This document shows positions 47,691 to 50,171 of a DNA stretch of 64,000 bases, one piece after another. Source of the stretch: Rhodohalobacter sp. SW132. GTDB lineage: Bacteria; Bacteroidota; Rhodothermia; Balneolales; Balneolaceae. The stretch is from NCBI RefSeq assembly GCF_003390325.1, contig NZ_QUOK01000002.1, positions 186,001 through 250,000 on the forward strand, written 5' to 3'. The position numbers were made by a program, and so were the translations under genes. The notes under the pieces are model-generated. The model searched no databases, had not been told where the DNA came from, and was given only the letters and a program-made list of their open reading frames with translations. How positions within the stretch are numbered: position 1 is the first letter of the stretch; every line of letters begins with the position of its first letter.

Positions 47691-48550
47691 TGAGTGGCTG
47701 GATTTACATCCTTCTAAGTTCAGTTTGTTCCGTTGCCATTGCCCATTTTTTAAAAGCCGCAGAGTTTAAGAAACTGGATACTGTTAAAGTTCTTACGGTA
47801 AACTACGTCATCGCGGCTTGTATAGCATTTCTAACTCCTTCCGGTGCTGAGATTCCCTCAAATATATCGGAACAAATTCCGGCCCTTCTGCTTGCTGCAC
47901 TGGTCGGTGTGATATTCATCGCCAACTTTTTTATTTACAGTAAATCTGTTAGCAAAAACGGTGTAGGGATCAGCGTAGCGGCGATGCGGATATCTCTTTT
48001 GATTCCCGTGTTGCTCTCAACAATCTGGTATCTTGAGCCGCTTGAAACCCGACAGTGGATTGGGATTGGATCCGTATTTATTGCGCTCTTTCTCCTTCTG
48101 CCAAATAAGAGAAAAATGATTCGTGAACCGCTTAGTGCCGCCTGGCTTCTGGTCTTATTGTTTGTAGGAACAGGACTTGGAGACGGTTCTTTGAAAATAT
48201 TCGAGGTAGAGTTTTTATCTTTGGTTTCTAAAGAACAGTTTATGGGAACGGTATTTTTAAGTTCTACAGTAGTCGGTTTAATTGTGATATTTGCTAAAGG
48301 AAAGTTTAAGTTTACCAGGCAGGAACTGCTGCTTGGCGCACTGATTGGCGTTCCCAATCTATACTCCGCAATTTTCTTAATCGAGGCACTTGAACGAATG
48401 AACGGCGCTGTTGTATACAGTACCATCAATATTCTGACAGTGCTGGGGGCAACACTACTTGGAATGATTCGGTGGGGGGACAGTCTGACCGTATTTCAAT
48501 GGACGGGTATAGCAGCTACAATCATATCAATTCTACTATTAGTTTCATGA
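47687..48550 (+). CDS. EamA/DMT-family permease
   Basis: 287 aa, about ten membrane segments in two EamA halves, beginning at an ATG that overlaps the preceding stop by 4 bp. Repeated features include SKNGVGISVAAMRISLLIPVLLS and VVYSTINILTVLGATLLGMIRWGD, typical of drug/metabolite transporters. Substrate unknown. Its stop overlaps the pta start codon (ATGA), so the two are translationally coupled. Confidence 0.88.
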   Translation: MMSGWIYILLSSVCSVAIAHFLKAAEFKKLDTVKVLTVNYVIAACIAFLTPSGAEIPSNISEQIPALLLAALVGVIFIANFFIYSKSVSKNGVGISVAAMRISLLIPVLLSTIWYLEPLETRQWIGIGSVFIALFLLLPNKRKMIREPLSAAWLLVLLFVGTGLGDGSLKIFEVEFLSLVSKEQFMGTVFLSSTVVGLIVIFAKGKFKFTRQELLLGALIGVPNLYSAIFLIEALERMNGAVVYSTINILTVLGATLLGMIRWGDSLTVFQWTGIAATIISILLLVS

Positions 48551-49539
48551 AAGATTCCATCTTACAACAGATTCTTACTACAAGTTCGCAATTAAATAAA
48601 AAAATTGTATTTCCGGAAGCCGGTCGTGATCCGCGTGTATTACATGCGGTGTCGCACCTGACTTCAACAGGTGCAGCCGTGCCAGTTCTGATAAGTGAAG
48701 CTGGAAGTGTAGAAGCACTTGCTGATGCCGAAAATATTGAGTTGCCGGATGATATCCGCATCATTAATGCTGATGATAAACAGGGACTTAAAGAAAGAAC
48801 TGTTTTTTTTGAAAAGAAGTTAAGTCATAAAAATCCAACGAAAGACCAGATTCTGCTGCTTGCTAAAAACCCGTTAATGATAGCAGGCTGGCTGGTTGCC
48901 ACAGGTCAGGCCGATGGCGCTGTGGCCGGATCCATTGCGTCCACTGCTGATGTCATTCGTGCATCGATTCGCACGATAGGTACGTCAGAGGGTGCAAAAC
49001 TGGTTTCAAGTACATTTCTGATGGAACTGACTGATGGACGCGTGCTCACGTATGCTGATTGCGGTGTCGTTCCATATCCCGATTCAGAGCAGCTGGCGGA
49101 TATCGCAATATCTTCCGGGGAGACACACCGGAAGTTAACCGGTCAGGATCCGAAAATTGCCTTTCTTTCATTCTCTACGAAAGGAAGTGCTGATCATGAA
49201 CGGGTTGATCTGGTGCGTGAAGCGCTGTTTCTGGCTAAAAAGAAAAAAAATGAGTGGGCGATGGATGGCGAACTTCAATTTGATTCTGCTTTTGTGCCGG
49301 ATGTTGCCAGGAGAAAATCCCCCGATTCAGAAGTTGCCGGCCAGGCGAATGTTTATATTTTTCCAAACCTTGATGCAGGGAATATCGCTTACAAAATCAC
49401 CGAAAGAGTAGGAGGGGCTACCGCTATTGGCCCGATCCTCCAGGGACTTGCAAAACCTTACATGGATCTATCCCGCGGCTGCTCCAAAGAAGACATTTTC
49501 TATGCCGCGTGTATCGCATCTGTTTTATCCGATTCGTAG
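48547..49539 (+). CDS. pta: Phosphate acetyltransferase
   Basis: 330 aa from the ATG at 48547 that overlaps the EamA stop by 4 bp; a start at 48472 would add 25 residues inside the EamA gene and is unlikely. Short form, PTA_PTB domain only: KKIVFPEAGRDPRVLHA, ADGAVAGSIASTADVIRASIRTIG, FLSFSTKGSADH and ANVYIFPNLDAGNIAYKITER. Interconverts acetyl-CoA and acetyl phosphate. No ackA is in the window. A tandem hairpin array starts immediately after its stop codon. Confidence 0.95.
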   Translation: MKDSILQQILTTSSQLNKKIVFPEAGRDPRVLHAVSHLTSTGAAVPVLISEAGSVEALADAENIELPDDIRIINADDKQGLKERTVFFEKKLSHKNPTKDQILLLAKNPLMIAGWLVATGQADGAVAGSIASTADVIRASIRTIGTSEGAKLVSSTFLMELTDGRVLTYADCGVVPYPDSEQLADIAISSGETHRKLTGQDPKIAFLSFSTKGSADHERVDLVREALFLAKKKKNEWAMDGELQFDSAFVPDVARRKSPDSEVAGQANVYIFPNLDAGNIAYKITERVGGATAIGPILQGLAKPYMDLSRGCSKEDIFYAACIASVLSDS

Positions 49540-49922
49540 AGATATCTTGGATGTGTGCCTTTGTCCGTCCCTCAGATATGGTATTTCTCAGGACTCAAAA
49601 GTGGTTCGGGTTCAGCGGTTGGTTTTGACTTATCATCCGGCCCGGAAATGATCGAACAGAAATACCATGTCTTGGATTGGTGCCTTTGCCCGTAACTCAG
49701 ATATGGTATTTCTCAAGGCTCGGAAGTGGTTCGTGTTTAGCGGTTGGTTTTGAGTCATCATTCTGCAAGGAAATGAACAAACAGAAATACCATATCTTGG
49801 ATTGGTGCCTTTGCCCGTCGCTTAGATATGGTATTTCTCAGGGTTCGAAAGTGGTTTGGGTTCAGCGGTTGGTTTTGACTCATCATTCGGCCCGGAAATG
49901 ATCGAACAGAAATACCATATCT
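49540..49922. repeat. Three tandem 125-bp repeats, each with long inverted arms
   Basis: Left arms AGATATGGTATTTCT at 49574-49588, 49699-49713 and 49824-49838; right arms AGAAATACCATATCT (first copy ends GTCT) at 49658-49672, 49783-49797 and 49908-49922. The period is exactly 125 bp. Each 99-bp arm-to-arm unit can fold into one hairpin, and the 26-bp spacer (TGGATTGGTGCCTTTGCCCG type) is also conserved. ORFs across it are not credible. The rest of the gap to sufB (49923-50171) shows nothing else but AT-rich promoter-like sequence. Confidence 0.85.
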
Positions 49923-50171
49923 CTTTTCGCTTCTGGTGATAACTGCGGGCAATAGCATATATCAGTAAACTCAATTAGCTGAAAATGAAGGGATTGCGGA
50001 TATTCGAACAGTTCTGAGAAAGGCTTTAAAGCGGGGAATAATTTGCTTATCTTTATTCATTCCAAATAAGGATAAGGCAATTTTGAATGCCCGGTCCTGA
50101 ACGTGCAGTAATGATGTTGTGTTCAGCAGTAAGATAGATTAAACAACTCAATTTTTAAAATTTCTGAATTT

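Follow-up and report, generated by a model that had tools for sequence, protein, structure and literature searches.

A three-unit tandem array behind pta as a probable cluster of REPIN-like elements

REPINs are hairpin-forming doublets of REP sequences and were described in Pseudomonas fluorescens SBW25 by Bertels and Rainey in 2011 (PMC3116915). In this strain, ordered tandem clusters that include the flanks were found, and clusters lie beside each RAYT (PMC3116915). The TnpA_REP/RAYT proteins of the Bacteroidetes fall into subclasses 2.4 and 2.6 (PMC6006769). Ordinary REPs carry a GTAG guide, and its absence has already been reported for some Bacteroidetes RAYTs. Two further systems resemble the DNA analyzed here, the BIMEs of Escherichia coli, generally known as clustered, alternating inverted REPs at gene 3' ends, and the BrickBuilt MITE of Porphyromonas gingivalis (PMC4596501).

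The array behind pta and its relatives share with the SBW25 REPINs (PMC3116915) two inverted, near-invariant 15-16-mers, a less conserved interior of fixed length and a hairpin in single-stranded DNA, as well as extragenic sites, tandem clusters that include the flanks and clusters by a presumed cognate RAYT. The arm sequence is unrelated to that of the SBW25 elements and no GTAG is present; furthermore, the arms are 66-72 nt apart, the arrays have at most 11 units and the spacers have a near-constant length of 25-29 bp. The clustered, inverted arrangement at gene 3' ends is shared with the BIMEs, but the repeat sequence is a different one, a canonical guide is missing and the phylum is another. 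BrickBuilt is likewise an intergenic tandem-repeat MITE in Bacteroidota, but its repeats of 23 bp follow one another without spacers in a single MITE, and units of about 99 bp with inverted arms are lacking (PMC4596501).

The window, a stretch of 64,000 nucleotides, corresponds to C2:186001-250000 of a 5.08 Mb draft genome in 45 contigs (G000). Tandem Repeats Finder reported a single array in the window (score 594, 3.0 copies), and three copies with a period of 125 bp were located at 49542-49922. The original prediction of three hairpin units with an exact 125-bp period directly after pta was confirmed, with register starts at 49542, 49667 and 49792 and the pta stop codon at 49537-49539. Identity to the first copy was 84% and 91% for the other two copies. 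Each unit has 15-bp inverted arms, AGAYATGGTATTTCT and AGAAATACCATRTCT, an interior of 69 bp (predicted as about 70 bp) and a 26-bp spacer. The predicted single change (GT for AT) in the first right arm was also present; this arm, AGAAATACCATGTCT, reads CATGTCT where the others have CATATCT, and it still pairs because of a T-G wobble. All six perfect arm matches in the window were within the array. The first bases of the array, ATATCT, are the last six of a right arm and precede a copy of the spacer, and this start fits a tandem duplication between short repeats. The features are listed in Table 1.

Table 1. Features of the pta-sufB region (window positions).
Feature	Position	Strand	Evidence or remark
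pta, phosphate acetyltransferase, intact, upstream of array	48472..49539	+	PF01515, E=1.5e-101; order pta-sufB same in G003
Left edge: truncated right arm (ATATCT, 49542-49547) and 26-bp spacer copy	49540..49573	+	125-bp register from 49542
Unit 1: arms 49574-49588 (left) and 49658-49672 (right, one G change)	49574..49672	+	
26-bp spacer, units 1/2	49673..49698	+	
Unit 2: perfect arms 49699-49713 and 49783-49797	49699..49797	+	
26-bp spacer, units 2/3	49798..49823	+	
Unit 3: perfect arms 49824-49838 and 49908-49922	49824..49922	+	
Host intergenic DNA before sufB; from about 49936 alignable to array-free intergenic region of G003	49923..50171	+	

A genome-wide search, as suggested by the original prediction, gave 47 matches to the 383-bp array in its own genome, and the array is therefore not a single-locus feature. 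The arm AGAYATGGTATTTCT occurred 127 times with at most one mismatch, compared to twice for the reversed control. At least 59 complete units, each with two inverted arms 66-72 nt apart, were found at about 19 loci. Many of them form tandem arrays of 2-11 units with spacers of 25-29 bp, the largest at C3:170353-172319 (11 units) and C6:146-1112 (8 units). The units are dispersed, multicopy and extragenic, and nearly all lie between ORFs. One unit, C2:3761-3861 (L089:762-862), is inside a predicted minus-strand ORF of 292 aa that may have arisen by chance. Convergent genes flank at least six other arrays, with the stop codons 7-90 bp away (approximate distances, based on ORFs), which suggests that the elements either are compatible with the 3' ends of transcripts or affect them. 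No match to the spacers was seen in the outer flanks of most loci (mean z about 0.5), indicating that the element ends near the arms. Common spacers were limited to a few pairs of arrays (L033/L039, L034/L090, L042/L086 and, weakly, L036/L040).

The arms were near-invariant across 64 aligned units, with most arm columns at least 90% conserved. Changes in the two arms were coupled: arm pair 4/101 was C-G in 38 and T-A in 25 of the 64 units, pair 2/103 was G-C in 56 and A-T in 8, and pair 14/91 was C-G in 60 and T-A in 3. In total 98.5% of the arm cells were paired, a value not reached in any of 500 shuffles. A hairpin element could acquire such coupled changes in two ways, through selection that keeps the arms paired or through the copying of both arms together, because units that descend from one another by copying can have matching arms even if pairing is not selected. 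Each 15-mer arm is in itself a weak palindrome, AGA-y-AT-ggt-AT-t-TCT. Folding of the units as single-stranded DNA gave z values of -3.4 to -4.5 relative to shuffles. When a common interior fold was sought with RNAalifold, only the arms paired. The length of the interior is maintained (66-72 nt), whereas its sequence is poorly conserved between loci. However, 55 of 65 interiors fell into one similarity cluster, above the shuffled control, and the mean similarity score was 40.5 within a locus and -2.1 between loci. Interiors that are linked across loci, and far more alike within a locus, point to units that spread between loci and multiply within them. No constant GTAG or GTGG tetranucleotide was found outside or just inside the arms. 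The repeat was consequently classed as an atypical, non-GTAG repeat of REPIN-like kind and kept apart from the canonical REPs.

The corresponding site was compared with other genomes. In G003, a member of the same genus, a pta 75% identical to that of the window is also followed by sufB, and the later part of the intergenic DNA aligns. The array is absent from this gap, which argues that it is an insertion in the window. G003 had no unit and no match to the RAYT of the C3 array described below. Of the genes bordering the C3 array, only that on the right was found in G003, and the sequence up to about 1.5 kb from this gene contained neither units nor a RAYT; the flanks of a further locus (L040) lay on different G003 contigs. 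Units occurred in other members of the family, one in G001, six in G002 and one in G047, and 55 of the 59 genomes searched had none. The units with the same arms are on C70, C6, C69 and other contigs of G002, on C82 of G047 and on C63 of G001, some with gaps of 66 nt.

The 11-unit C3 array is split by an ORF of 192 aa (C3:171128-171703) that lies between two units. The protein matched the NCBIfam model for REP-associated tyrosine transposases (NF047646) with E=1.2e-13 and 51 bits, below the curated cut-off of 80 bits, and its match to Pfam Y1_Tnp was also sub-threshold (20 bits, cut-off 23). NF047646 was matched by all 22 relatives of the protein, and for a profile of these relatives PDB 4er8 (TnpA_REP) was the sole solved-structure match (E=1.9e-7). 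The HUH histidines H60 and H62 and Y123, the tyrosine of YIHxNP, were invariant in the protein and its relatives. Like the Bacteroidetes TnpA_REP/RAYT proteins (PMC6006769) it has the NHxH and YIHxNP motifs, here NHFH and YIHRNP, but the W of the WQ motif is missing. Judged from these sequence features, the C3 protein is a REP-associated tyrosine transposase (RAYT/TnpA_REP) of the HUH, Y1 type. The genome thus has a RAYT within a cluster of the repeats that also lie behind pta, an arrangement expected of REPINs. Relatives from one contig scan were of Saprospiraceae type only. Several relatives elsewhere are flanked by inverted repeats of their own. Beside the homologue in G014 (44-45% identical) a doublet with different arms was found, GTTTAGTAAAGCT...68 nt...AGCTTTACTAAAC, as would be expected if RAYTs and REPINs coevolve in pairs.

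Two further RAYTs are encoded at C9:8019-8582 (L084) and C3:314355-314942 (L085), and AGACCTGACAGGTTTT palindromes flank L084 and also RAYTs in other genomes of the order. Four IS200-like TnpA genes are located at C10:2733-3077, C10:205567-205911, C1:175667-176011 and C3:42660-43001 (L092-L095), each flanked by a multi-copy repeat family of its own (CATATCCGTAGCCC, ATATTTGTAGAAA, GCCCTGAAAGGGC and CCCCGAGTTTCACCC). Because of these two RAYTs and four IS200-like transposases, the C3 RAYT was assigned as the helper by position only.

The array behind pta is very probably a tandem cluster of a REPIN-like, non-autonomous element that was copied in trans by a RAYT and then amplified in tandem. Such an element would be a small mobile DNA that encodes no protein and forms a hairpin, when single-stranded, through its two inverted 15-mers. 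The C3 RAYT probably recognizes the arms in trans and inserts copies of the unit at further intergenic positions. After one such insertion behind pta, the unit would have been multiplied there along with its 26-bp flank; this tandem duplication may have proceeded by replication slippage or unequal recombination. What counts against this explanation is that G001, G002 and G047 hold units and gave no close orthologue of the C3 RAYT (G002 is only 74% complete), that the C3 RAYT scores under the curated NCBIfam and Pfam cut-offs, and that a GTAG or GTGG guide is missing.

The original prediction had offered three interpretations of the array, of which the tandemly amplified MITE came closest. A miniature, non-autonomous inverted-repeat element, present at about 19 loci and amplified in place, was indeed found; it is REPIN-like and associated with a RAYT, and not a MITE with terminal inverted repeats and a DDE transposase. 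A classical MITE, mobilized by the DDE transposase of an insertion sequence and bordered by target-site duplications, would also have inverted ends, a length of about 100 bp, no ORF and many intergenic copies. It is nevertheless an improbable explanation, since the largest array holds an HUH-type RAYT and no DDE gene, no recurrent or consistent direct duplication was seen in the unit flanks, and the arms are imperfect palindromes as in REPs. Small RNA genes or 3'-UTR regulators in tandem would suit an array directly behind pta, other arrays often tens of bases from stop codons, and hairpins that fold better than shuffles. No relevant Rfam family was matched at E up to 5, however, promoter and terminator scans gave hits at chance level, and conservation is confined to the arms, the interiors being poorly conserved between loci. 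This makes a regulatory RNA very unlikely, while a side effect of the array on the 3' end of the pta mRNA is possible.

The third interpretation, an integrase attachment or integron-like recombination site, draws on the period of about 125 bp, which is generally known to resemble the spacing of attC sites. An attC-like array is strongly disfavoured by the dispersal of the units over about 19 loci at many unrelated intergenic sites, the spacers of only about 26 bp leave no gene cassettes between units, and the protein in the largest array is an HUH transposase; the probability of such a site is accordingly very low. An expansion of the repeat by assembly error had been named as a further concern, and a draft in 45 contigs is open to it. 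Copies that differ by 9-16% are unlikely to stem from assembly duplication, and units of this build, with other spacers, are present at many independent loci. An artefact can thus practically be dismissed.

Periods of 124-131 bp recur across the arrays, although the spacers are mostly unrelated (about four related pairs of arrays). Some of this near-constancy is due to arrays of common descent, and a constraint on the period is possible. The period is near 12 turns of B-DNA. It could have been selected or set by mechanism, through higher-order DNA structures (e.g. wrapping or gyrase platforms at gene 3' ends) or cuts by the RAYT at a fixed distance from the arm, and not by accidental tandem duplications, but this is considered unlikely. 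Two arrays at C3:392.7-395.1 kb (L130:487-871 and 2341-2740) have a period of 127 bp and belong to a second palindrome family, TTCATCSGATGAA, which is unrelated to the first. Its arms are TTCATCGGATGAATTCGCTTCATCCGATGAA and CTCATCCGATGACGGGAAGTC..GGATGAG, and the arrays lie beside gene 3' ends. The core palindrome of this family has 22 copies in the genome, several of which adjoin units of the pta family.

The kind of element described here is already known, and the lineage is one in which such elements are little described. A seemingly local tandem repeat can prove to be one of many copies after a genome search. The present repeat, which lacks GTAG, extends well-formed REPIN/RAYT systems to an apparently Bacteroidota-type lineage, and its largest array, of 11 units, encloses the transposase gene. 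As pta occurs both with and without an array within a single genus, natural pairs are available in which the effect on the preceding gene can be tested.
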